From Alphaproteobacteria bacterium 46_93_T64 (lineage in GTDB: Bacteria > Pseudomonadota > Alphaproteobacteria > Sneathiellales > Sneathiellaceae): 64,000 nt of DNA. A model generated the notes under the pieces. The model made no database searches. It saw only the letters and a list, made by a program, of their open reading frames with translations, and was not told the DNA's origin. Positions 6,184 through 59,366 of the stretch are shown here, one piece after another. The stretch is taken from positions 1 to 64,000 of the forward strand of contig MAAN01000004.1 in NCBI GenBank assembly GCA_002163135.1, in the 5' to 3' direction. Position numbers and translations under genes: made by a program. The first letter of the stretch is position 1. Each line of letters opens with the position of its first letter.

Positions 6184-7131
6184 TTAATGAAAATCTTCAT
6201 CTAGGGCGGAACTCATATCGCCTTCATATGCTTCGTCTTCAACAGACTCTCCTGTCACATGTCGCGACAATCTTCTGCAAATATCATCCAATTGGTCGAG
6301 GTGCTCATACGATATTATTATCTGACCACCACGTTCAGCATGATGATTTATACTCACTTTCAGGCCAATAGCGGCAGATAAATCCCCCTCTAGAGCGAGC
6401 GTATCCTGATCTTTCGTAGGTACGGACGCTGAGCGCGCTCTATTTGAGGGTTTTTTCTGGGCTAATTTCTCTGCTTTTCGGACAGAAAGCCCCTCTTCAA
6501 CAATTTTCTTGGCCAGCTTCTCTGGATTGTCTGCCGTTATTACGGCACGCGCAGCACCCGCACTTAAATCTCCAGACCGGATCATCTTCTGGACACTTAC
6601 AGGCAGGGATAAAAGGCGCATGATATTTGTCACATGCGACCTGCTTTTACCTAGCTGCTTTGCCAAGATATCCTGTGTATAATTAAACTCGTCCGCCAAC
6701 CGTCGATACCCTTCAGCTTCTTCGATAGCAGATAAATCTTCCCGTTGGATATTTTCAATGATTGCGATTTCAAGACTATCAACATCTGACAAGTCTTTAA
6801 TGATAACCGGAACTTTATGCAGTTGAGCCATTTGGGCAGCGCGCCAACGTCTCTCACCCGCGATAATTTCGAACAACCCATTATCTTTAGGATCCCGACG
6901 GACAAGAATGGGTTGCAAAACCCCCTTTTCCGCAATGGAATCTGCAAGACTTTGCAATGCTTCCTGATCCCAGTCCTGCCTCGGCTGAAATGGACTTGGG
7001 TGCATCTGCTCTACAGGTACATCTTTCGAAGTCCTAATTTTGTCCAGTTCAGAATAATCAGCTGCGACATTATCCCCAAGCAAGGCAGATAAACCGCGAC
7101 CAAGTTTCTTTTTTCCAATTTCATCAGACAT
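6184..7131 (-). CDS. parB: Chromosome-partitioning protein ParB
   Basis: CTP-dependent DNA clamp that loads at parS sites and spreads to segregate the origin. The 315-residue protein has the N-terminal ParA-interacting segment (KKKLGRGLSALLGD), the ParB/Srx CTP-binding motifs GERRWRA (about 92-98) and ENIQRED (about 126-132), the parS-reading helix-turn-helix (about 152-174), and a C-terminal dimerisation domain. I chose the ATG at 7131, matching the usual MSDEIGKKKLGRG start; a GTG at 7140 would add three residues. It lies 20 bases downstream of parA in the same operon. Four consensus parS sites are found at 8.2-15.2 kb. Confidence 0.95.
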   Translation of the reverse strand: MSDEIGKKKLGRGLSALLGDNVAADYSELDKIRTSKDVPVEQMHPSPFQPRQDWDQEALQSLADSIAEKGVLQPILVRRDPKDNGLFEIIAGERRWRAAQMAQLHKVPVIIKDLSDVDSLEIAIIENIQREDLSAIEEAEGYRRLADEFNYTQDILAKQLGKSRSHVTNIMRLLSLPVSVQKMIRSGDLSAGAARAVITADNPEKLAKKIVEEGLSVRKAEKLAQKKPSNRARSASVPTKDQDTLALEGDLSAAIGLKVSINHHAERGGQIIISYEHLDQLDDICRRLSRHVTGESVEDEAYEGDMSSALDEDFH

Positions 7132-7151
7132 AGTGACCACAGATTAGTTAA

Positions 7152-7955
7152 TTAGGCTGCATGTAAGCGTTTTTCACGCCGGATTAGTTCGCTGGCCAGT
7201 TTAATATAGGCCTGACTTCCTGCACAACGATGATCGTAAATCAATACTGGTTTACCGTGACTCGGTGCTTCGGAAACTCGCACATTACGAGGTATAACAG
7301 TTTCATACACCTTATCACCTAGATAATCACGGACATCTTGCGCTACTTGATCAGATAATTTGTTGCGCTTATCATACATAGTCAACACCACACCTTGAAT
7401 ATCAAGTTTAGCATTAAGGGTGTTGCGAACACGCTCGATAGTTTTAATCAGCAAACTTAACCCTTCAAGCGCAAAAAACTCGCATTGTAGCGGTACAATG
7501 ACTGCCTGAACGGCAACTAAAGCGTTTAAGGTCAACAAGTTGAGTGAGGGTGGACAATCGATCAGAATATAATCGTATCTTTCTTGAATGGGGGCAATTG
7601 CCTCCACCAGACGATGGCTGCGGCGATCCATTTCGATTAGCTCAAGTTCAGCTCCCGTTAAATCCGGAGTAGACGGAACCAAATCCAGATTTGGTATAAC
7701 ACTGGGACAAATGGCCTCGTCCATTGATATGTCGCCCATGATGACATCATAAACGTTCAATTCACGATTAAATCTATCGACACCTAGACCAGTACTGGCA
7801 TTTCCTTGGGGATCAATGTCAATGATAAGAACCGATTTACCAACTGCGGCTAGCGCGGTCGCAAGGTTGATGGTTGTCGTTGTCTTACCAACACCGCCCT
7901 TTTGATTAGCAACTGCAAGGATACGTGATGATCCTACGATACTAAGCTCTTCCAT
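7152..7955 (-). CDS. parA: Chromosome-partitioning ATPase ParA
   Basis: Walker-type ATPase that pulls ParB-bound origins apart along the nucleoid. The 267-residue protein carries the deviant Walker A box KGGVGKTTT (residues 19-27), Walker B-like DYILIDCPPSLNLLTLNAL and the ParA motif VVLTMYDKRNKLSDQV. Chromosomal rather than plasmid type is indicated by the lack of an N-terminal helix-turn-helix and by the rsmG-parA-parB context. A good Shine-Dalgarno (CAGGGGG) precedes the ATG. It begins 13 bases after rsmG ends. Confidence 0.96.
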   Translation of the reverse strand: MEELSIVGSSRILAVANQKGGVGKTTTTINLATALAAVGKSVLIIDIDPQGNASTGLGVDRFNRELNVYDVIMGDISMDEAICPSVIPNLDLVPSTPDLTGAELELIEMDRRSHRLVEAIAPIQERYDYILIDCPPSLNLLTLNALVAVQAVIVPLQCEFFALEGLSLLIKTIERVRNTLNAKLDIQGVVLTMYDKRNKLSDQVAQDVRDYLGDKVYETVIPRNVRVSEAPSHGKPVLIYDHRCAGSQAYIKLASELIRREKRLHAA

Positions 7956-7968
7956 TTTTGCCCCCTGC

Positions 7969-8574
7969 TTAACTTCGGGACACGTTCCTTAATTCTAGAA
8001 CACTTCCCTCAGAACTGGATAAACTCTGATGCTTAATTGGGTCCATTCTCCAACATTTTGCGGCATTGGTCAATTCCGCATCTACATCTTGTCCCTTTAA
8101 ATACAGAAGAAGTGTATCTTGGGTAGAGAACGGATCTGCAAATTCCAGTAGTTTTTCGAGAGAAGCCAGCGCTCTTGCAGAAATTACAGTCGCTGGAAAA
8201 GGCTCTACAGCGTCAATTCTTTTGGTGTGAATAGTGATAGGTGTAGATGTTTCACGTGAAACCTCCCGCATAAATTGACACTTCCGTTGATCGCTTTCAA
8301 TCACGTGAACATCAAAATCACTGGCCATTGCAACGATTAAAGCCGGAAATCCTGCACCACTTCCCATATCAATCCACACACCACCTGTTGATGGCGCATA
8401 TTTCAAAATCTGAAAGCTATCCAATACATGACGTTCCCAAACATCAGGGAGTGTCGCTTTACTAACAAGGTTTATAGCCTTCTGCCATTTTTTGAGAAGA
8501 GCAACATAGGTTTCGAACTTATCCATTGTTTCACGTGAAACATCGGTAAGTTTCAAGAATTCTTGTTCATCCAT
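7969..8574 (-). CDS. rsmG: 16S rRNA (guanine-527-N7)-methyltransferase
   Basis: Methylates G527 of 16S rRNA using S-adenosylmethionine. The 201-residue product has the motif I loop DMGSGAGFP (residues 69-77) and RsmG-type N-terminal helices (LLKKWQKAINLVSKA, WERHVLDSFQIL). Two parS sites lie inside the coding sequence in the same frame; each is read as Val-Ser-Arg-Glu-Thr, at residues 12-16 and 105-109. The gene therefore carries centromere DNA within its protein-coding frame. It sits between mnmG (upstream) and parA (downstream), the conserved order. Confidence 0.95.
   Translation of the reverse strand: MDEQEFLKLTDVSRETMDKFETYVALLKKWQKAINLVSKATLPDVWERHVLDSFQILKYAPSTGGVWIDMGSGAGFPALIVAMASDFDVHVIESDQRKCQFMREVSRETSTPITIHTKRIDAVEPFPATVISARALASLEKLLEFADPFSTQDTLLLYLKGQDVDAELTNAAKCWRMDPIKHQSLSSSEGSVLELRNVSRS
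8248..8263. promoter_or_regulatory. parS: parS centromere site inside rsmG (site 1)
   Basis: The 14-base core GTTTCACGTGAAAC (8249-8262) is a perfect palindrome identical to the bacterial parS consensus core; the outer pair is T/C, one step from the ideal T/A. It is bound by ParB, encoded about 1.1 kb away. It is read as part of VSRET in RsmG. Confidence 0.9.
8527..8542. promoter_or_regulatory. parS: parS centromere site inside rsmG (site 2)
   Basis: A perfect 16-base palindrome, TGTTTCACGTGAAACA, matching consensus parS. It lies near the 5' end of rsmG and encodes residues VSRET there. Confidence 0.93.
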
Positions 8575-10449: not shown

Positions 10450-10516
10450 GGGGGCCAATGTATGAATAGAGGGTCAAAAGTCAAAGCAAAATTGAACATG
10501 GCAGATATGTATCGTT

Positions 10517-10532
10517 TGTTTCACGTGAAACA
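10517..10532. promoter_or_regulatory. parS: parS centromere site between mnmE and mnmG (site 3)
   Basis: A perfect 16-base palindrome TGTTTCACGTGAAACA, identical to site 2, in the short gap between the mnmE stop and the mnmG start. It could influence mnmG expression when ParB is bound, but its main role should be segregation. Confidence 0.93.
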
Positions 10533-10545
10533 TGCAACAGACCTG

Positions 10546-12236: not shown

Positions 12237-14276
12237 ATGGAAAATGATATGGAAAACGTTCTGGATAGGGAAACAAGCCCCTATTTGTTGCAGCATAAAG
12301 ACAACCCAGTTCACTGGCAACCGTGGGGGCCTGAATCCCTAGATACAGCCAGACGAGAAGGAAAACCCATTTTATTGAGTGTTGGCTATGCTGCTTGTCA
12401 CTGGTGTCACGTTATGGCCCATGAGAGTTTTGAAGATCCAGCGGTTGCCACAATGATGAATGAATTATTTATCAATATCAAAGTGGACCGTGAAGAACGT
12501 CCAGATATTGATCAGATTTATCAAACTTCCCTCGCCCTACTTGGTGAACAGGGAGGATGGCCGTTGACTATGTTCCTAAATGCAAAGGGCGACCCCTTCT
12601 GGGGCGGGACATATTTTCCAAAGGAAAATTCATATGGCCGGCCAGGGTTCACTAACGTTTTACAAACTGTCTCAGATATCTTCAAAAACGAGCCGGAAAA
12701 AGTAACAAAGAACCGTGATATTCTCAAAGCTGCTCTCAAAAAACATAATGCTACAGCGGAAGGTGATCGGCCTAAACTCACTGTTGAAGTTCTCGATCGA
12801 ATTGCAGATAGATATGCAGAAGAAGCGGATGTGGAACATGGTGGTATCGGATCTGCACCGAAATTCCCACAAACGTATGTTCTAGAGAATTTATGGCGGA
12901 GTTACATCCGAACTGGTAAAGAAAATCTGGCGGAAATTGTTGTAAAAGCTCTCACTCAGATGTCCCAAGGTGGCATTTATGACCATCTAGGCGGGGGTTA
13001 TTCCCGTTATTCTACTGATGCACTCTGGCTTGCACCACATTTCGAGAAAATGCTGTACGATAATGCTCTTATCCTTGACCTGCTAGTGCTTGTACATGCC
13101 GAGAATAAAAACGAACTGTTCAGAGACCGCGTTTACGAAACAGTTGATTGGGTCTTTCGCGATATGATTGCCGAAAACGGCGCTCTTTCAGCGACTATCG
13201 ATGCTGATAGCGAAGGAGTTGAGGGAAAATTTTATGTGTGGTCTGAACAAGAACTGGAAGAAGTTCTGGGTACAGAAGCGGCGCAGTTCGCAGAAATTTA
13301 CGGTGTAGAGGACGAAGGTAACTGGGAAGGTACAAACATCCTTCATCGGCTTAATTACGCAACAGCCCTTGATGAGGAAACAGAAGCTGCTCTCCTCCCA
13401 CTTCGTCAAAAGCTATTTGAAGCACGAAGTAAAAGAATTCATCCAGAGTTGGATACAAAAGTCCTGACAGACTGGAATGGACTTATGATCGCAAGTCTTG
13501 CCAAGGCTGGACAGTATTTCAGTGAAGCTCACTGGGTAGAGCGGGCAGAAAACGCTTTTTCAGCAATCACTACCCATTCAATGCAAGAAGACGGACGTCT
13601 TTATCACAGCTATCGGCTAGGAGAAGCTAAACATACCGGTATTCTGGATGACTACACCAACATGAGCCGCGCCGCCCTCACCTTGTATGAAATTACCGGA
13701 CGGAGTTTCTACTTAGAGCGAGCTAAAAACTGGATCCAAATTCTAAATACGCATTTTTGGGATAAAACGGGTGGATACTTTTATACTGCCGATGACGCGG
13801 AAGCTTTGATTGTCAGAACCAAAAATGCGTTTGATAATGCAGTCCCATCGGGCAATGGAACCGTATTGGAAGTTTTATCCAAACTTCATTATCTAACGGG
13901 TGACCGCGAAGCATTTGAAAAAGCAACGGATATTGTAAGAGCTTTCTCCGTTGAACTTGGTCGAAATTTCTTTCCTCTTGCGACGTTCCTCAATAATTTT
14001 GAAACTCTGGTAGAGGGATTACAGATTCTGATTATTGGCGGACGTGATGAGCCTGCAACCCTTGAGTTGGTTTCCGTATTGAATGAATTTAGTCTTCCTG
14101 CCAAAGTCGTTAATATACTTGCCACATCGGAAGACCTCCCTTTTGATCACCCGGCAAATGGCAAAAACCGAAAAGACAATAAACCAACAGTCTATATCTG
14201 TACCGGATCTGTTTGTTCAGAACCTGCAAATAACCCTATGGATCTTCGAAAACAATTACAAAGCAAGGCTAGCTAA
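12237..14276 (+). CDS. Thioredoxin-domain protein (DUF255, YyaL/SSP411 family)
   Basis: A 679-residue cytoplasmic protein with the N-terminal DUF255 thioredoxin-like domain ([16 protein letters not shown], then [14 protein letters not shown] at residues 54-67, and [13 protein letters not shown]) and a large C-terminal (alpha/alpha)6 barrel like that of N-acylglucosamine epimerases ([33 protein letters not shown]). The family is widespread, and its biochemical role is unsettled. Two start codons, 12237 and 12249, are possible; I give the first. The stop codon directly abuts the ATG of the alkyltransferase gene, so the two are co-transcribed. Confidence 0.9.
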
Positions 14277-14756
14277 ATGGCACAACTTAGTATGCATAGC
14301 CCCGTTGGGGATCTTACCATAACCGAAGAAGATGGGGCCATCGTCTCACTTGATTGGGGATGGGTGCCAGCAGAATGGCAAGATGAAACCCCACTGCTTA
14401 CCAACGCTATAGCACAGCTAAATGACTATTTTGATGGCAATTTACTTGATTTTGATCTTCCACTTAATCCGCCAGGATCTGATTATCAAAAACGCGTTTG
14501 TTTTGCCATGAAAGCCATTCCAGGGGGCACAACCAAGTCGTATGGCGAACTTGCAAAGGAGCTGGAGAGTTCAGCTCAAGCAATAGGAAATGCTTGTGGC
14601 CTTAACCCTATACCCATCATTATTCCGTGCCATAGAGTACTTGCTGCTGGAAAGCAGCTTGGTGGATTTTCTGGAGATGGTGGTGTAGAGACCAAAAAAG
14701 TATTATTGGAGCTTGAGAACGCTCTTCCACCGATCCAACAAAATCTCGATCTTTAG
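14277..14756 (+). CDS. ogt: Methylated-DNA--protein-cysteine S-methyltransferase
   Basis: Suicidal repair protein that moves alkyl groups from O6-alkylguanine (and O4-alkylthymine) to its own cysteine. The 159-residue protein has the active-site motif IIPCHRV (cysteine 118), preceded by the DNA-binding helix QAIGNACGLNPIPI and followed by GGFSGDGGVETKKVLLELE, a divergent form of the usual GGYSGG-KR segment. The short length with no Ada regulatory domain fits Ogt/MGMT. The ATG immediately follows the stop of the DUF255 gene. Confidence 0.9.
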   Translation: MAQLSMHSPVGDLTITEEDGAIVSLDWGWVPAEWQDETPLLTNAIAQLNDYFDGNLLDFDLPLNPPGSDYQKRVCFAMKAIPGGTTKSYGELAKELESSAQAIGNACGLNPIPIIIPCHRVLAAGKQLGGFSGDGGVETKKVLLELENALPPIQQNLDL

Positions 14757-14808
14757 TTCATAAATCATAATTCCCGAAACGGGGCGCTAACAAAAAAAAG
14801 GTATTGTC

Positions 14809-15783
14809 ATGACAAAAGCCATTACATTTAGTGAATTTGGAGGGCCAGAGGTCCTCAAATGGGCAGACGTAGATGTCGGTAGCCCCTCAGGTGGTGAAGT
14901 AAGAATAAAACACTTGGCTGTTGGCCTCAACTTCATCGATGTTTATTTCAGAACGGGTCTCTATCCCGCCCCACTTCCAAATATACCTGGTATGGAAGCT
15001 GTTGGTATTATTGAAGAATTGGGAGCCGGTGTCACAGGATTTTCTATTGGCGATCGTGTTGCTTATGCGTGCCAGCCAATCGGAGCCTACAGCGAAGCCA
15101 GAGTTATGCCTGTAGCAGGTCTTATTAAAGTTCCCGATGCCATTGATGACCAAACTGCAGCAGCTATGATGCTTCAAGGTATGACGGCTGAATATCTACT
15201 ACAACGTACGTTTCACGTGAAACAAGGGGATACAATCCTGTTTCATGCCGCGGCTGGCGGCGTTGGCCTTATCGCCTGCCAATGGGCCAAACATTTGGGT
15301 GCAACTGTGATTGGAACCGTTGGTTCAGAAGAAAAAGCCGAACTTGCAAAAGCACATGGATGTGATCACACCATCAACTATCAAACAGAAGGTTTCCAAG
15401 AACGGGTAATGGAAATCACTGAAGGCAAAGGCGTCCCTGTTGTTTATGACAGCATTGGTAAAGATACGTTTGAAAAGTCCTTGGATTGCCTACAACCACG
15501 TGGGTTGATGGTTTCTTATGGAAACGCATCCGGGCCTGTTACTGGTGTTGATTTGGGAATTCTAGCGGCAAAAGGATCTGTCTACGTTACCCGCCCTACC
15601 CTTATGACCTATAATGCCACTCGGTCAGATCTCGAAAAATCATCTTCTGATATGATGAAACTGGTCGCAAATGGAACTGTGAAAGTAAACATAGGACAAA
15701 GTTATCATTTGTCTGAAGCTGCCAAAGGGCATGAAGATCTGGAAGCCAGAAAAACGACAGGATCCACAGTTTTTACTCTTTAA
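14809..15783 (+). CDS. Quinone oxidoreductase (zeta-crystallin type)
   Basis: NADPH-dependent one-electron quinone reductase of the medium-chain dehydrogenase superfamily. The 324-residue sequence shows the GroES-like N-terminal domain (FIDVYFRTGLYPAPLPNIPG, MEAVGIIEELG) and a Rossmann motif AAAGGVGLIACQWAK near residues 145-160. No structural or catalytic zinc cysteines are present, as expected for QOR. A parS-like palindrome lies within the coding sequence and is read as Arg-Thr-Phe-His-Val-Lys-Gln. A clear terminator follows 25 bases after the stop. Confidence 0.9.
   Translation: MTKAITFSEFGGPEVLKWADVDVGSPSGGEVRIKHLAVGLNFIDVYFRTGLYPAPLPNIPGMEAVGIIEELGAGVTGFSIGDRVAYACQPIGAYSEARVMPVAGLIKVPDAIDDQTAAAMMLQGMTAEYLLQRTFHVKQGDTILFHAAAGGVGLIACQWAKHLGATVIGTVGSEEKAELAKAHGCDHTINYQTEGFQERVMEITEGKGVPVVYDSIGKDTFEKSLDCLQPRGLMVSYGNASGPVTGVDLGILAAKGSVYVTRPTLMTYNATRSDLEKSSSDMMKLVANGTVKVNIGQSYHLSEAAKGHEDLEARKTTGSTVFTL
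15209..15224. promoter_or_regulatory. parS: parS centromere site inside the quinone oxidoreductase gene (site 4)
   Basis: The core GTTTCACGTGAAAC (15210-15223) is a perfect palindrome, with outer bases C and A (one off the ideal). It lies 4.7 kb from site 3 and about 5.6 kb from the predicted oriC, closer to the origin than parAB itself. ParB spreading from here would cover the haem genes and the origin. Confidence 0.85.
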
Positions 15784-19744: not shown

Positions 19745-20788
19745 CTATTTTTTCCAGGCGTGAATGGTTTCTGCAAGTAAAGCTACATTTTCAGGGGGAG
19801 TTTGGGGAATAATACCGTGACCCAAGTTGAAAATATGAGGTCCGTTTGAAAGAGTTTCAAGAATTTCATGAACCCGATCAACCATCGCCTGCCCCCCTGC
19901 AACTACCATAATCGGATCAAGATTTCCTTGAACGACAACGTGAGGTTGAATGTTTTCTACAGCCCATTCAAGTGGCGTCGACGTATCAAGACTTACAGCC
20001 GTAACCCCGGTGCCTTTAACAAATTCAAGAAGATTACCAGCAATACCCTTTGGAAAGCCAATAATTGGTAGATCTGGATGCACGGCTCTAAGACCATCAA
20101 CAATTTGGCGGGTTGGCGCAATTACCCATTTACGGAACATATCGTCAGGAAGGACGCCAGCCCAAGTATCAAAAATCTGAACTGTTTCAGCACCAGCCTC
20201 AACCTGCTTTAAGAGATATTCGATCGTTGACTGAACAAGAATATCCATCAATTTCTGAAAGCCTTCAGGATCTGAATATGCCCATTTTTTTATTTCGGCA
20301 TAGTCTTTGGAGCCTTTTCCTTCAATCATATAGCTCGCAACGGTCCAGGGAGCCCCTGCAAAGCCTATTAAAGTCACATGAGAGGGTAAGGAGCTACTTA
20401 AACGGTTCACGGTCTCATACACAGGGTTTAGACGGTCATGGAGCTTATCCATGGACAGAGACGTCAGCTCTTTTGCCGAGCGAATAGGATCTAAAACGGG
20501 TCCCTCGCCTTCTTTGTAGGCAAGTGGCTGACCTAAAGCATCCGGAATAAGCAGAATATCTGCAAATAAAATTGCGGCATCGAAGTCATACCGGCGTAGG
20601 GGCTGTAATGTTACTTCTTCAGCCAAAGCAGGGTTATAGCAAAGATCCAAAAAGGATCCAGCATTGGCCCGTGTTGCACGATATTCAGGAAGATAACGTC
20701 CAGCCTGTCGCATTAGCCAGAATGGAGGACGGTCCAATTGTTCTTTGTTTAGGGCTTTAAGTAGTCTCTTTTTTGGCAATGTGGACAC
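19745..20788 (-). CDS. hemE: Uroporphyrinogen decarboxylase
   Basis: Removes four acetate carboxyls from uroporphyrinogen III to give coproporphyrinogen III. The 347-residue protein has the two family signatures [17 protein letters not shown] and [19 protein letters not shown] plus FDTWAGVL. Translation starts at GTG 20788 with an AAGG-type Shine-Dalgarno 7 bases upstream. It is the first gene of the haem operon, and its upstream region is the predicted chromosome origin, the same arrangement as in Caulobacter crescentus. Confidence 0.96.
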
Positions 20789-20863
20789 AGCCTAGCCTTC
20801 CTAAAAAGTTATCCCCTCCAATATAGTAATTATATTAATAGGAGGTTGTTGTTGTTGATACCT

Positions 20864-20878
20864 GTGAATAACGGGGAT
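20864..20878 (+). repeat. Left arm of 15-base inverted repeat in oriC
   Basis: GTGAATAACGGGGAT is the exact reverse complement of 21141-21155. It overlaps the DnaA box at 20863-20871. The arms are about 260 bases apart. Confidence 0.85.
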
Positions 20879-21140
20879 GCGTTTTCATCCACATCTTTTA
20901 TCGGCATTTTGTGGAAAAAATCCAGTAAATAGCGACTTTTGGGATAAGATCCGAATAACGGCGTTTTTCAAAGATAAAAAAACTGTGGAAAGCGGGGATA
21001 ACTTTTAGAATAGTATTTCCAGAAAAGTTATCCTCATTAATCAAAATACGTATAGACAGTTATGCACGGGTGGAAACATGTTCTAGCAAAATATGAATTA
21101 TGTGTGTGAAAGTTTTCGAATTGTTATAAAAGGCCATGTT

Positions 21141-21155
21141 ATCCCCGTTATTCAC
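21141..21155 (-). repeat. Right arm of 15-base inverted repeat in oriC
   Basis: ATCCCCGTTATTCAC, the exact reverse complement of 20864-20878, immediately followed by the perfect DnaA box TTATCCACA at 21157-21165. Confidence 0.85.
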
Positions 21156-21185
21156 GTTATCCACAGGTAAACTAGGACAGTTTTA

Positions 21186-22016
21186 ATGAGAGAATTTCAT
21201 TTGCATTTAGTTTCGGATTCAACAGGCGAGACTTTGCAATCTATTGCAAAAGCGGCTCTCGTACAGTTTGAAGATGCGGATGCTATCGAGCACGTCTGGT
21301 CTTTGACACGAACCGTACGTCAACTTGATGATATCCTTGATTCTATTGAGAAAAATCCTGGTCTTGTCCTCTTTACATTAGTGAATAAGGAAATGCGCCA
21401 AATCCTGGAACAGGGATGCCGTAAATACAACGCGCCTTGTGTTTCGATACTTGATCCCGTGATGGCATCTTTATCGCAGTTCTTGGGACAGGAAAGTCGC
21501 GGATTACCTGGCCGTCAACACACACTTGATCAAGAATATTTCTCACGCATTGATGCGCTTAATTATACAATGGCCCATGATGATGGGCAAATGCCCGACG
21601 GGTTGGATGATGCCGACATTATTCTTGTAGGTGTTTCAAGAACTTCAAAAACACCTACATCTTTTTATCTTTCACATCGGGGGATAAAAACAGCGAATGT
21701 TCCGATTGTTGTGGATTGCCCCCTGCCCGATCAGCTTTTTGAAGTGAAGAAACCATTTGTTGTGGGACTTACAACAAGTCCGGAGCGTCTCTCACAAATT
21801 CGTAAAAACCGCCTGCTTTCTCTTAAAGAGACAAATGATACCAGCTACGTAGATCTGGAACGTATTAAGGAAGAAGTCGTTGTTGCTCGCAAACTTTGTA
21901 CAAAACAAGGATGGCCGGTTATAGACGTATCGCGACGGTCTGTTGAAGAAACAGCTGCGCAGATTATAACGCTATATAATCGCAGGTTTTCAGATGAAGA
22001 GAAATTATTGACATGA
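21186..22016 (+). CDS. ppsR: Pyruvate,phosphate dikinase / PEP synthase regulatory kinase-phosphorylase (DUF299)
   Basis: Bifunctional ADP-dependent kinase and phosphate-dependent pyrophosphorylase controlling PPDK or PEP synthase. The 276-residue protein shows the family start FHLHLVSDSTGETLQSIAKA, the P-loop-like GVSRTSKTP (149-157) and TSFYLSHRGIKTANVPIV. The target enzyme is not in this window, so whether it acts on PpdK or PpsA is open. It lies immediately beside oriC, as its orthologue does in Caulobacter, and overlaps maf by 4 bases (ATGA). Confidence 0.93.
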   Translation: MREFHLHLVSDSTGETLQSIAKAALVQFEDADAIEHVWSLTRTVRQLDDILDSIEKNPGLVLFTLVNKEMRQILEQGCRKYNAPCVSILDPVMASLSQFLGQESRGLPGRQHTLDQEYFSRIDALNYTMAHDDGQMPDGLDDADIILVGVSRTSKTPTSFYLSHRGIKTANVPIVVDCPLPDQLFEVKKPFVVGLTTSPERLSQIRKNRLLSLKETNDTSYVDLERIKEEVVVARKLCTKQGWPVIDVSRRSVEETAAQIITLYNRRFSDEEKLLT

Positions 22017-33337: not shown

Positions 33338-33982
33338 TTATGCGGTTGCCACGCGCTTCTTACGCCATCCAATGAAACCCATCAACGCCATACCCGCGCC
33401 ATATAATGGAAGAGCTGCGGGAAGAGGAACTGCAGAGACTTGAGGTCCCCAAACAGCATATACGGCAGTGTTATGATCGGACAGATCGTCAGCAGCATAT
33501 AGCGGATTTGATGAAATAACCGCTTGATCTGTATTGGCTCCAAAAGCGTTATGAGCGAGTGAAACCGATACATCTAGAAAATGAGTTGGATCATCTGGGT
33601 ATCGAGGCGTTGGAAAACCAAAAGCCGTGTAAACATTCCCCGGAGTTTGCGTTACACCGTTGACCCGAGTAGGATAATAATCAAAAAGCCCATCTGGACC
33701 GTCAATGAGAACCTGTTCTAATAAGGCTTGGGCTGCTAACAAAGCATCTGCGGCGGACTGAAACGTAAAATCAGAAATGTCATCACAACCGGAGTAAGCG
33801 ACAGCACAAGTTCCATCTACAAATCTTACATCATAAACGCCTCCGCCAACAGTTACTCCCGTTGCGCCCATCAATTGACCGCTGACAACATTCAACGTCG
33901 CTGCAAAGGCACCACTACTGACTAGGCAAAGCACAGTTACAGCTGTACTTATTGTTAAAAAAAATTTCTTAATGGCCTTCAT
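33338..33982 (-). CDS. VPLPA-CTERM sorting-domain protein (first)
   Basis: A 214-residue exported protein: Sec signal peptide (MKAIKKFFLTISTAVTVLCL, then VSSGAFAA), a 160-residue body without recognised domain but with one cysteine pair region (CAVAYSGCDD), and a C-terminal VPLPAALPLYGAGMALMGFI-GWRKKR anchor. That last part, VPLPA plus hydrophobic helix plus basic end, is the VPLPA-CTERM signal processed by an exosortase. A GGGGGA Shine-Dalgarno precedes the ATG. Surface or EPS-associated location is inferred; the function is unknown. Confidence 0.85.
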   Translation of the reverse strand: MKAIKKFFLTISTAVTVLCLVSSGAFAATLNVVSGQLMGATGVTVGGGVYDVRFVDGTCAVAYSGCDDISDFTFQSAADALLAAQALLEQVLIDGPDGLFDYYPTRVNGVTQTPGNVYTAFGFPTPRYPDDPTHFLDVSVSLAHNAFGANTDQAVISSNPLYAADDLSDHNTAVYAVWGPQVSAVPLPAALPLYGAGMALMGFIGWRKKRVATA

Positions 33983-38565: not shown

Positions 38566-38973
38566 TGCCCCGCCTTTGTCGTATCCTGATTTTTTTAATT
38601 GGTTAATGAATATTCTGAAAACCTTAATTCAAGAATAATATCAAGTGAATAAAGGTAGATGATGGAATCAACGTGATATTTGTTACGCAAGAGCCGCAGG
38701 TGATTCGCCAATTTCTCAAAAATACGCATCCCTCATATGAGTGATACGCTAAAGTAAATCAAAACTTGTTATAGTTAATAAGAATTAACCTTTTGCCCTA
38801 AATTGAAACCAGTCGGATTAAGAAAACCATGTAAACACAATAAGTTACTGATTTTGTGTGAAAATTGGTAAAAAAGTCTCTTAAAAATTTCCTTTTATAT
38901 GTATGTTGCCCCTTTCATAATGGCTTTGGCGAAAGCTGTTTTGCCTTCGATTTTGGAATGTTGGATATTTGTA
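38566..38973. other. Intergenic region between GT4 gene and second VPLPA-CTERM gene
   Basis: About 400 AT-rich bases between divergent genes. I find no convincing protein, RNA gene, inverted repeat or sigma-54 promoter. It should hold both divergent promoters. The open frame could extend to an ATG at 38899, but the extension does not look like a signal peptide. Confidence 0.5.
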
Positions 38974-39570
38974 GTGAAAAATTTTCTTAGTATGATTTTG
39001 GGGCTCATCGGGACCGCAGTTCTTTTTGTGCTGCCAGTAAACGCAGCCACCTTTAGTCTGGATTTTTCAGATCCAACAGTTTCGCTTGGCATGCCAGTAG
39101 CTATGACAACAGGCACTGTGCACGAAGGATTAACAAATTCCGATACAGTTGATTTTATGTACAAGTCGCCTTGGGACACAACGGCAACTCCGACAGAGAG
39201 CTTTACGTCTGTTCAGGCAGTATCCTCTGCCGCTTATGAATTTGACACATTACATACCTCCGCTAGTTTTTTGTGGGGTTCTGTTGATTTTTACAACTCA
39301 ATTATTTTCAAGAATGCCGGTAGCGTTGTTGATGAATTGAGCGGTCAAGCAGTTATCGATGCTGGCGCGATAACCGGTGAAGAATTTGTTCAAATCACAA
39401 TATTGGCGATGGCCGCATTTGATGAAATTGTCTTTCAGTCAACACAGCATGCATTTGAGTTTTCAAATTTGAATGTGTCAGCAATACCTTTACCTGCCGC
39501 CCTACCTTTATTCGCTGCTGGTATCTTGCTATTTGGCTTTTTGGGTCGGCGTCAAAAGACAAATGTGTAG
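38974..39570 (+). CDS. VPLPA-CTERM sorting-domain protein (second)
   Basis: An exported protein of about 198 residues. From GTG 38974 the N terminus reads MKNFLSMILGLIGTAVLFVL followed by PVNAATF, a good Sec signal peptide; ATG 38992 or the upstream ATG 38899 are alternatives, and none has a clear Shine-Dalgarno. The body has no known domain; the C terminus is AIPLPAALPLFAAGILLFGF then LGRRQK, a VPLPA-CTERM signal like that of the gene at 33.3-34.0 kb. Together they bracket the heptose/glycosyltransferase genes. Confidence 0.78.
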   Translation: MKNFLSMILGLIGTAVLFVLPVNAATFSLDFSDPTVSLGMPVAMTTGTVHEGLTNSDTVDFMYKSPWDTTATPTESFTSVQAVSSAAYEFDTLHTSASFLWGSVDFYNSIIFKNAGSVVDELSGQAVIDAGAITGEEFVQITILAMAAFDEIVFQSTQHAFEFSNLNVSAIPLPAALPLFAAGILLFGFLGRRQKTNV

Positions 39571-56599: not shown

Positions 56600-58006
56600 C
56601 TAGTTTTCAAGCATACGGCGCAGGAGATCGATATCTTCTGAAAGTGAAATATCGCTTTCTCTCAGCTCGTCTATTTTGCGAACGGCATGCATCACTGTCG
56701 TATGATCGCGTCCCCCAAATTTCCGACCGATTTCCGGCAATGACCGGCTTGTGAGTTGTTTGGCAAGATACATCGCAACCTGACGGGGGCGCGCAACGGC
56801 GCGAGCCCGTCTTGCCGAATGCATGTCAGACATTCGAATATTGAAATGCTCAGCCACGCGCTTTTGAATTTCTTCGATAGTCGTCCGGCGGTCATTGGCC
56901 CGTAGAAGATCGCGGAGGACCTCCTGAGTGCTTTCAATAGTAACGGCCCGACCCACGAGATCGGAATAGGCAAGAACCCTGTTCAGGGCCCCTTCAAGCT
57001 CTCTTACGTTTGACGTAATTCGGTGGGCAAGGAATTCCAGAATGCGTGGATCAATGGAAATGGCGGCTTGTTCGACTTTTGACTGAAGGATACCGAGGCG
57101 CAATTCATAGTCAGTTGGGTGGATGTCCGCCACAAGGCCCCAGCCAAGGCGAGAGCGCATTCGCTCTTCCATACCTTCGAGATCAGTTGGGGATCGATCC
57201 CCAGAAATAATAATTTGGTGGTTTTGATCAACGAGGGCGTTAAAGGTGTGAAAAAATTCTTCCTGGGTAGATTCTTTACCCGCAATGAACTGCACATCAT
57301 CAATCATTAACACGTCAACAGAGCGGAACTGCTCTTTGAAGGTCATTGTGTCCTTATACCGAAGCGCACTGATAAAGCGGAACATGAATTTTTCAGCTGA
57401 AAGATACAAGACTTTTTTGTCGGGTGCATTTTCAGCCAGTGCATGACCGATAGCGTGCATTAGATGGGTTTTACCAAGGCCCACGCCCCCATATAAATAA
57501 AGGGGGTTGAACGGAATATTGTCCCTTGCTTCTGCCACTCTGCGAGCTGCTGCATGCGCGAGCTCATTGGATTTACCGACAACGAAATTGTCAAATGTAA
57601 AACGTGCATCAAGTTGTGATTTCAGGTTGCTTGCTGCATCAGCCGATCCAGTACGGCTAATGGGGCGAACGTTCTGGTTTCTTGTCGCTGCGGGTGTTTC
57701 AACAGTGTTATCGGGCAGGGCAGTTTCCGGGGATTCTTTTACGTGGATGTCTATTGACTGTATGTCATCGGCCTCAAGACACCAGATTTGCCGAATACGG
57801 TTGGCGTAATTATTGATCACCCAATCCCGAAGAAATTTTGTCGGAAGGGACATCGTTACATGACCATTGGAGATGGTCTCAAGATCTATATTTTTTAACC
57901 AGGAATTATAAGTCGCTTCACCATATTCTGAACGTAAGCGCTCTCGTACCTTGGTCCAGGCCTCGGAATGGGGGTTTTGAATATTTAAAGCTCCACTACT
58001 CGTCAT
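56600..58006 (-). CDS. dnaA: Chromosomal replication initiator DnaA
   Basis: AAA+ initiator that melts oriC. The 468-residue protein has the N-terminal domain I (WTKVRERLRSEYGEATYNSW), a variable linker, the AAA+ core with Walker A LYGGVGLGKTHLMHAIGH (173-180 within) and Walker B VLMIDDVQFIAGK, and the C-terminal DNA-binding domain IV with the signature GGRDHTTVMHA. The ATG is one base after the stop of a rhodanese gene, so both are probably on one transcript. The target origin predicted here is about 36 kb away, at 20.8-21.2 kb. Confidence 0.97.
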   Translation of the reverse strand: MTSSGALNIQNPHSEAWTKVRERLRSEYGEATYNSWLKNIDLETISNGHVTMSLPTKFLRDWVINNYANRIRQIWCLEADDIQSIDIHVKESPETALPDNTVETPAATRNQNVRPISRTGSADAASNLKSQLDARFTFDNFVVGKSNELAHAAARRVAEARDNIPFNPLYLYGGVGLGKTHLMHAIGHALAENAPDKKVLYLSAEKFMFRFISALRYKDTMTFKEQFRSVDVLMIDDVQFIAGKESTQEEFFHTFNALVDQNHQIIISGDRSPTDLEGMEERMRSRLGWGLVADIHPTDYELRLGILQSKVEQAAISIDPRILEFLAHRITSNVRELEGALNRVLAYSDLVGRAVTIESTQEVLRDLLRANDRRTTIEEIQKRVAEHFNIRMSDMHSARRARAVARPRQVAMYLAKQLTSRSLPEIGRKFGGRDHTTVMHAVRKIDELRESDISLSEDIDLLRRMLEN

Positions 58007-58007
58007 C

Positions 58008-58454
58008 TCAGTTTTGTACCCAATCCAGATTTTCGACTTTCCATCCGCCTACATTGCCACGATGACGGGTCACGTCTGCATCCCCTTCGAAGCCTTCAAG
58101 GATGTTGTAACAGTTTTCGTAGCCTGCATTTGTCGCAGCAATTGCGGCGGCGATTGAACGCACACCGGAGCGACACAAAAACAGTACAGGAGCCGAAGAA
58201 TCGCCTTGCAGGCTTTTAAGGGCTGGCAAAAAGTTAGGGTTTGGAGACATGTCGGGGAATTGGACCCAAGAGACCAAATGACACGTTTTGCCAAGTTTTG
58301 AGAGGTCTGGCAGGCCAACATATGCCCATTCAGCCGTTGTGCGAACATCGACAAGGATGGCTGCCTTGTTTTCTTCAAGTATTTGCCATGCTTGTTTCGC
58401 TGTAACATCACCAGCATATTGCTTGTTGCCGGTATTTGTTCCCACATTCGTCAT
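58008..58454 (-). CDS. Rhodanese-like domain protein
   Basis: A 148-residue single rhodanese domain: ILVDVRTTAEWAYVGLPDLS, and the active-site loop FLCRSGVRSIAAA with cysteine near residue 94, followed by LEGFEGDADVTRHRGNVGGW. It should carry a persulfide on that cysteine; its acceptor is unknown. I chose ATG 58454; an in-frame start at 58511 would add 19 residues. It ends one base before dnaA, which makes it the first gene of the dnaA transcript unless dnaA has an internal promoter. Confidence 0.88.
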   Translation of the reverse strand: MTNVGTNTGNKQYAGDVTAKQAWQILEENKAAILVDVRTTAEWAYVGLPDLSKLGKTCHLVSWVQFPDMSPNPNFLPALKSLQGDSSAPVLFLCRSGVRSIAAAIAATNAGYENCYNILEGFEGDADVTRHRGNVGGWKVENLDWVQN

Positions 58455-58712
58455 AAAACGGGCCTTTCCCCAGTTTGATCCAAAAATTAAACGATCACGA
58501 CCAGACACCATAAAACAGCCCTGTTCCGCAGCAATATACTGCGAAGCGGTAGAAGTTTTTAAACCTGGAAATGATAGCGGATGGTGCGATCAACACTCAA
58601 TCAAGTGCAGATAAACCAGCCTCATTGAAAACGCATTATCTACGTTTTTTTGCCGACCGCGTGCTATCAAATGTCTGTTTGTTCTCCCAATTGCGGGGAA
58701 TTTAATCTCAAC

Positions 58713-58721
58713 TTATCCACA
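58713..58721 (+). promoter_or_regulatory. DnaA box upstream of the rhodanese-dnaA genes
   Basis: A perfect TTATCCACA. On the minus strand it lies between a weak -35-like TTGCAT and a -10-like TTAAAT with a 17-base spacer, so DnaA binding could block a promoter for dnaA. The promoter match is poor, so this is tentative. Confidence 0.5.
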
Positions 58722-58886
58722 GATGCAAGTGAGTCAGATAACATTTAATGAAAATAAACTTATGAATAGATCAAAGAAATTCTTGACCTACAAGATATAG
58801 TTATTTTGCGGAGGGAAACAGGTATTCGCCAAAATATGTTGATAATTTTAGTCGAATTAATCTGGTGAAAAATACACCAAAAAGAC

Positions 58887-58922
58887 GAAAAAAAAGCCGT
58901 GACCGACAACCGGCAACGGCTT
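58887..58922 (-). terminator. Rho-independent terminator of rpsT
   Basis: On the minus strand AAGCCGT (58922-58916 side) pairs with ACGGCTT around an inner CCG/CGG stem, followed by a run of about nine T. It sits 24 bases beyond the rpsT stop. Confidence 0.85.
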
Positions 58923-58945
58923 GATTCTCATTTGTGTGCCTGTGA

Positions 58946-59212
58946 TTATGCAGACAGCGCTTTTACTCGTGAGTTCAAACGAGAGATTTTGCGACCGGCT
59001 GTGTTGGCTTTCAACACGCCTTTAGTCACGCCTCGTGAGAGTTCTGCTTGAGCAACACGAAGTGCTTCGTTCGCGACTGTTTGATCACCTGCAGTGATCG
59101 CAGTTTCTACTTTCTTGACGAAAGTGCGGATACGGCTGCGACGTGCACGATTGCGATCTGTGCGTGTCTCTGTCTGCCGGATGCGCTTAAGAGCTGATTT
59201 ATGATGCGCCAT
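58946..59212 (-). CDS. rpsT: 30S ribosomal protein S20
   Basis: Small-subunit primary binding protein of the 16S rRNA 5' domain. The 88-residue basic protein starts [20 protein letters not shown] and shows the family segments VKKVETAI and [16 protein letters not shown] chose ATG 59212; a start at 59227 would add five residues and does not fit the family. It stands upstream of the dnaA region on the same strand, the alphaproteobacterial arrangement, with its own terminator. Confidence 0.96.
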
Positions 59213-59366
59213 GACGATCCTGTACATTAGCTTCGAATTTCGGAAGCCGGGTTATAGCCAGCCATTATACTGCCGTCAACAAGAGAATACCATTGAAGCG
59301 GCAGAAACTGACATTAAGGGTGGTTTTTTCGAGAAAAAGTCGGAAATCCCGAAAATTCTATAGGTT

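Follow-up and report, generated by a model that had tools for sequence, protein, structure and literature searches.

The hemE/ppsR gap and its DnaA boxes

The window, that is, the whole stretch of 64,000 nucleotides analyzed here, is the first 64 kb of its contig in a 4.0 Mb draft genome of 41 contigs, and its PpsR is closest, among relatives named to genus, to those of Sneathiella. Between the divergent hemE and ppsR genes lies a gap of 397 bases that contains or adjoins the following features.

19745-20788, minus strand: hemE, uroporphyrinogen decarboxylase, GTG start (Pfam URO-D, 3.5e-125)
20789-21185: predicted oriC, the intergenic gap between divergent hemE and ppsR (box cluster, skew change point, conserved length)
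20820-20842: AT-rich tract, probable first-melting stretch (putative DUE, from AT content)
20843-20857, plus strand: trinucleotide array AGG TTG TTG TTG TTG, DnaA-trio-like, T-centered (array score, alignment)
20863-20871, minus strand: array-proximal DnaA box TTATTCACA (TGTGAATAA on the plus strand), exact match, 5 bases from the array
20910-20918, minus strand: DnaA box TTTTCCACA, exact match
20996-21001, minus strand: central GGATAA (TTATCC) in the conserved CGGGGATAAC (word count, alignment)
21028-21036, plus strand: one-mismatch box TTATCCTCA (box scan)
21139-21165, plus strand: gapless head-to-tail box triplet TTATCCCCG, TTATTCACG, TTATCCACA
21186-22016, plus strand: ppsR, kinase/pyrophosphorylase (Pfam Kinase-PPPase, 9.9e-98)

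We take the Kinase-PPPase product of ppsR to be equivalent to COG1806/DUF299, and by the Pfam matches the gap is flanked by hemE and the COG1806 gene, as is the alphaproteobacterial hemE-COG1806 oriC. A preliminary description of this DNA had the genes on both sides pointing away from the gap, which is correct for the flanking genes and their neighbors (hemE, hemH, hemJ, and rho on the left, all on the minus strand; ppsR, maf, aroE, coaE, and dnaQ on the right, all on the plus strand) but not further out, where the left arm is mixed and 12237-15783 is on the plus strand. The names of hemE, rho, and ppsR were checked with Pfam; those of hemH, hemJ, maf, aroE, coaE, and dnaQ are presumed from the sequence. 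No Rfam family matched the window at gathering scores, and no tRNA was found in it. Two small secreted-looking proteins encoded elsewhere in the window (33338-33982, minus strand; 38899-39570, plus strand) carry a VPLPAALPL tail and then a short basic end, tails that we take to resemble PEP-CTERM/VPLPA sorting signals.

The three boxes reported earlier as exact matches to TTWTNCACA are indeed present in the gap (20863-20871 and 20910-20918 on the minus strand and 21157-21165 on the plus strand), where 0.06 would be expected from the density outside it; the window as a whole has 12, compared with 7.5 expected from shuffles. The one-mismatch boxes had been put at four and number seven (20885, 20964, 20984, 21028, 21060, 21103, and 21148). 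Counting all boxes with at most one mismatch, the gap contains 10; the remainder of the window predicts 1.08, and the runner-up 397-base window has 7. The gap therefore has the above-chance cluster of DnaA boxes by which the alphaproteobacterial hemE-COG1806 oriC is recognized. The abundance of TTATCC-type words was also seen again, with six TTATCC/GGATAA in the gap and no more than two in each of 1257 other overlapping 397-base windows. From each of two single-contig relatives, G012 and G022, we sampled twenty stretches (600 kb). The gap of G012 is the richest 392-base window, with 11 boxes and 7 in the next; that of G022 is not the richest by one-mismatch count, the top windows lying elsewhere with 6 boxes, and is the richest by TTATYCMCM (3 versus 1).

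All loci used for comparison were selected via ppsR, and 121 of 133 have a divergent hemE/ppsR pair; the 12 without a usable pair were left out, merging of identical gaps reduced the 121 to 108, and 4 of 18 further loci were left out as having no hemE. The alignment set came from 65 gaps first extracted, 52 of them unique, of which 24 form the Sneathiella group, defined by a PpsR at least 70% identical to that of the window (one of the 24, L070, is labeled only Sneathiellales). These 24 unique gaps are 393-421 bases long and share three conserved blocks: on the hemE side the AT tract together with the trinucleotide array and the box of the latter, in the center GGGGATAA-type words, and on the ppsR side the box triplet. 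The triplet ends 17-39 bases ahead of ppsR in Sneathiella-group gaps and was found in all 24 with a search pattern composed after the alignment had been seen. The central GGATAA in CGGGGATAAC would be a weak DnaA box, and the CGGGGAT next to the array-proximal box is possibly a weak tandem one. In some lineages ppsR and the gap are kept, but the interval from rho to the gap showed no hemE, or none of hemE, hemH, and hemJ; the gene upstream of the gap is then hemH (L369, L371, and L202), hemJ (L358 and L227, from the same genome), or rho (L374 and L226).

An AT tract and a trinucleotide array on the hemE side

The stretch 20820-20871, overlooked in the preliminary description, is likely to be the opening element. 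On the plus strand it runs from the AT tract through AGG TTG TTG TTG TTG, ATACC, and TGTGAATAA to CGGGGAT. The most AT-rich 30-mers of the gap begin at 20820-20821 with 24 of 30 A/T, a value that is not exceptional, as 546 30-mers of the window reach it; the position of the tract is AT-rich across the 24 aligned Sneathiella-group gaps.

Arrays were picked by a score with a maximum of 10 that rewards T and G on either side and is blind to the middle base. Every one of the 24 Sneathiella-group gaps scores higher for TNG on the array strand than on the opposite strand; 21 of them reach 9 of 10, compared with none on the opposite strand, and in 22 no more than 5 of 100 shuffles match the array score. 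G occupies each third position in all 24 arrays, which is visible too in an independent alignment. At the center of the two trios nearest the box, T is found in 19 and 21 of the 24 arrays, respectively, and C in none. The array is followed by the best DnaA-box match at a spacing of 5 or 8 bases in 20 of the 24 gaps, and in 12 of those 20 the match at that spacing is a perfect TGTGRATAA.

Among the other 84 gaps, 38 score 8 or more and 17 reach 9, again with none reaching 9 on the opposite strand, which leaves 67 whose score for a clean TNG array is below 9 of 10. The array strand scores higher than the opposite strand in 59, lower in 10, and equally in 15, and only 24 of the 84 have 5 or fewer of 100 shuffles scoring as high. 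TNG arrays similar to that of the window are present in part of the Alphaproteobacteria, with A, T, or G and hardly ever C at the center: arrays scoring 8 or more have T 61, A 36, G 8, and C 0 as middle bases in the Sneathiella group and G 51, A 47, T 43, and C 0 in the other gaps. Three genomes of one family (L365, L366, and L368) have a regular TAG TAG CAG TAG TAG before the box, near the Bacillus type.

Position of the probable replication origin

The change point in strand composition was located by maximum likelihood from the third-codon-position G/C skew, with separate rates per coding strand and a single best point. In the window this point coincides with the gap (log-likelihood gain 49.0), as it does in the relatives G005 (237.3) and G015 (129.4). 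For G012 the best point lies 1-1.5 kb from the gap (gain 166.7), with the gap third at 163.3, 3.4 log units lower; for G022 it lies about 5 kb away (gain 69.9), with the gap second at 69.1, 0.8 lower. The sign change of strand composition that goes with a hemE-COG1806 oriC is thus found at the gap, with the best point 1-5 kb off in two of the five stretches. In the sampled stretches of G012 and G022 the skew is negative before the gap and positive after it, and the opposite flip falls between 1.95 and 2.2 Mb; the pattern is clean at third codon positions in G012 and has several small departures in G022. A GC-skew minimum elsewhere, which the preliminary description had named as the observation that would count against an origin here, was not borne out in the window, in the stretches of the four relatives, or in the sampled G012 and G022.

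The partition genes and their sites lie to the left of the gap, and dnaA lies to the right.

6184-7140, minus strand: parB (Pfam ParB_N, HTH_ParB, ParB_C)
7152-7955, minus strand: parA, adjoining parB (Pfam AAA_31)
8248-8263: parS-like site, one mismatch (motif scan)
8527-8542: parS, exact (motif scan)
10517-10532: parS, exact (motif scan)
15209-15224: parS-like site, one mismatch (motif scan)
56600-58006, minus strand: dnaA, initiator, the sole match of the genome to the DnaA ATPase domain at E ≤ 0.001

The whole 4.0 Mb draft genome has no other parS site with one mismatch or none, and all four are 5.6-12.5 kb left of the gap; two weaker, two-mismatch sites are on other contigs. The fetched stretches of the four relatives have parS-like sites within about 5-14 kb of the gap, and G022 has two further ones elsewhere (L133 and L158). 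Two of the four sites in the window are inside the gene at 7969-8574, presumably rsmG, one is in the short intergenic stretch 10459-10545 that separates mnmG from its neighbor, and one is inside the gene at 14809-15783. A rhodanese-domain gene (58008-58511, minus strand) stands directly upstream of dnaA, one base apart, and dnaA may therefore be the second gene of an operon that it leads.

An origin at dnaA, a gene separated from ppsR by 34-39 kb in the window and four relatives, would follow the arrangement of many bacteria outside the class and would leave the hemE/ppsR boxes only to titrate DnaA or to regulate hemE and ppsR. The dnaA locus does cluster dnaA with genes that we take to be dnaN, recF, and gyrB, the numbering of the two single-contig relatives starts from dnaA, and one exact box and three with a single mismatch stand in the 855-base gap at 58512-59366, upstream of the dnaA-rhodanese pair, but about 2.3 boxes of the two kinds together would be expected there at window density and the best TNG array of that gap scores only 7. 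Against such an origin, moreover, the genes between the hemE/ppsR gap and dnaA have the skew sign of the dnaA side in all five stretches (the window, G012, G022, G005, and G015), and hence the flip is not at dnaA. An origin there is rejected by the skew and largely refuted, and we regard it as highly improbable.

The array, too, can be read otherwise than as one trio per DnaA subunit. It could be part of the hemE promoter or leader, a CAA-type leader on the hemE strand unrelated to opening, since it stands on the strand opposite to hemE, 55-69 bases ahead of the hemE start, but this would not account for its distance of 5 or 8 bases from the best box in 20 of the 24 Sneathiella-group gaps, with 12 perfect TGTGRATAA. 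By eye, similar arrays also remain where hemE is not beside ppsR (L369 and L371, with hemH; L226, with rho), a weak argument since their automatic scores of 6-7 do not exceed chance. A role in the hemE leader is unlikely and the least likely of the readings of the array. The array might instead work in the E. coli way, with single-stranded TTGT, an E. coli motif (PMC10316083, in the excerpted text), recruited by box-bound DnaA. TTGT occurs in 23 of the 24 Sneathiella-group arrays, three times in that of the window, yet it is absent from 25 of the 38 high-scoring arrays outside the group, in which the three-base period is kept; recruitment of this kind is a possible, less probable alternative.

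The boxes, the skew change point, the clustering of parS sites, and the conservation of the gap all support the proposal, made in the preliminary description, of a chromosome origin in the hemE/ppsR gap, and on this sequence evidence we put the probability that 20789-21185 is a bidirectional chromosome origin at about 0.9. It belongs, as would be expected, to a known class and is ordinary for Alphaproteobacteria; what is unexpected are the letters of the opening repeat. The predicted origin provides an anchor for Sneathiella genomes, with the opening element as its interesting part. We infer the following course from DnaA binding and melting, through the role of the array and helicase loading, to the action of ParB. 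DnaA would fill the boxes, including the head-to-tail triplet on the ppsR side and the weak central GGGGATAA-type boxes, and at the hemE-side box (20863-20871) would seed an oligomer running leftward onto the plus strand of the TTG array (20843-20857). This oligomer would pull the array open beside the AT tract (20820-20842), helicases would load, and forks would leave both ways, whereupon ParB, bound at the parS sites 5.6-12.5 kb left of the gap, would segregate the new origins.

The DnaA pocket and comparison with known origins

In Bacillus subtilis DnaA, Asn-187 holds the middle adenine of a trio, and T or G at that place impairs opening whereas C is tolerated (PMC10721633, in the excerpted text). 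Aligned to 8btg, the DnaA of the window has Phe-209 for Asn-187, Lys-224 for Arg-202, and Glu-250 for Glu-228. At the Asn-187 position, 71 alphaproteobacterial DnaAs have Tyr (58), Phe (5), His (4), Asn (2), Ser (1), or Arg (1), and 26 DnaAs from other classes of Pseudomonadota have Ala (7), Gln (7), Thr (6), Ser (3), Asn (1), Leu (1), or Gly (1). Loss of the asparagine alone is therefore not special to Alphaproteobacteria; Tyr or Phe is found in 63 of 71 against 0 of 26, and as the class shares one ancestry these residues are not independent events. With a caller that admits other first letters, the arrays of genomes with an aromatic pocket have G 72, A 72, T 82, and C 4 as middle bases.

Covariation of pocket and middle base was examined in 68 gap/DnaA pairs (Tyr 51, Phe 8, Asn 5, His 3, Ser 1), with an array called in 56. 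The mean A fraction was 0.31 with an aromatic residue (n = 50) and 0.37 in the rest (n = 6; p = 0.60), and with a box-side caller it was 0.40 (n = 53) versus 0.58 for Asn (n = 4), a value as high being reached in 3444 of 20,000 permutations; the callers put some arrays in the Asn genomes at the wrong place. Inspected by eye, some of the Asn genomes look A-centered and L367 does not, which we do not count as evidence. The two tests gave covariation no support, and the link between pocket and base is therefore put forward as a hypothesis. We tentatively suggest that the alphaproteobacterial opening repeat may be a relaxed DnaA-trio, 5'-TNG-3' (N being A, T, or G and hardly C), read by an aromatic (Tyr/Phe) pocket of DnaA in place of the adenine-reading Asn-187; the ring could stack on the middle base instead of reading its amine. 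If so, Alphaproteobacteria would open their origins by a base rule different from that of Bacillus, where T and G are harmful and C is tolerated, and the class offers a natural series of TTG, TAG, and TGG arrays and of Tyr, Phe, His, and Asn pockets.

The synteny with Caulobacter that had been invoked for the gap stands, in that the hemE/COG1806 pair also flanks the experimentally studied Caulobacter origin (PMC1914354, in the excerpted text). According to the same excerpts, Cori of Caulobacter crescentus (404 bases) and the Rickettsia oriC (383-396 bases) are similar in length to the window gap and share with it the gene pair, the DnaA boxes, and an AT content above the genome mean. The Caulobacter origin has five CtrA sites, in contrast to the window gap, which is without a perfect one; the excerpts also report none in one Wolbachia strain and in Ehrlichia ruminantium, so that such sites are not universal (PMC1914354). 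A perfect TTAA-N7-TTAA occurs in 0 of 24 Sneathiella-group gaps and a one-mismatch version in 2 of 24, compared with a perfect site in 6 of 8 Hyphomonadaceae-type gaps serving as a positive control. As the family itself varies, we did not count CtrA sites as defining a hemE-COG1806 oriC.

The E. coli boxes have the same polarity relative to the DUE as those of the window. The single-strand motifs of the E. coli DUE are TTGT and TTATT, the first of which is shared with the window array, although its three-base period sets the latter apart; the Thermotoga maritima DUE has a short trinucleotide run, the eTrio (TAG three times), that is essential for single-strand binding, and how the two DnaAs recognize different motifs is still to be elucidated in the excerpted account (PMC10316083). 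The eTrio is TAG only, in contrast to the alphaproteobacterial arrays, which are TTG, TAG, or TGG by species. A search of the open-access literature for Sneathiella together with a replication origin found nothing, the match for "DnaA-trio" with alphaproteobacteria concerned Epsilonproteobacteria, and no title among the matches listed dealt with alphaproteobacterial trios, although the supplementary tables of PMC8287927 may list such origins.

The closest parallel in layout is the basal unwinding system (BUS) of B. subtilis and many other bacteria, which has the same order and polarity of AT tract, trinucleotide array, short spacer, and DnaA box. Its trios are 3'-GAT-5', the published screen accepts at least three consecutive 3'-NAN-5' within 16 bp of a DnaA box, and the spacer between array and box peaks at 10-13 with a maximum of 16 (PMC8287927, in the excerpted text). 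In the window an exact TGTGAATAA stands 3' of the array on the same strand, 5 bases away and inside the allowed distance. BUS trios, however, have A in the middle, where the window array has T and the Sneathiella-group arrays are mostly TTG or TAG, and the window gap does not pass the trio rule of the excerpted PMC8287927 in our own coding of it (boxes with at most one mismatch, the first 300 bases of the gap, forward sequences only). So coded, 3'-NAN-5' is passed by 6 of the 24 gaps of the Sneathiella group and by 21 of the 98 others. A W-N-G rule is passed by 17 of 24 and 19 of 98, with 0 and 2 passing as reversed sequences; outside Sneathiella the share of gaps passed is about equal for both rules, and W-N-G is hence no better as a general definition there. 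Because its trios fall outside the BUS definition, the opening element predicted here is a BUS-like variant in layout and not a member of the BUS.
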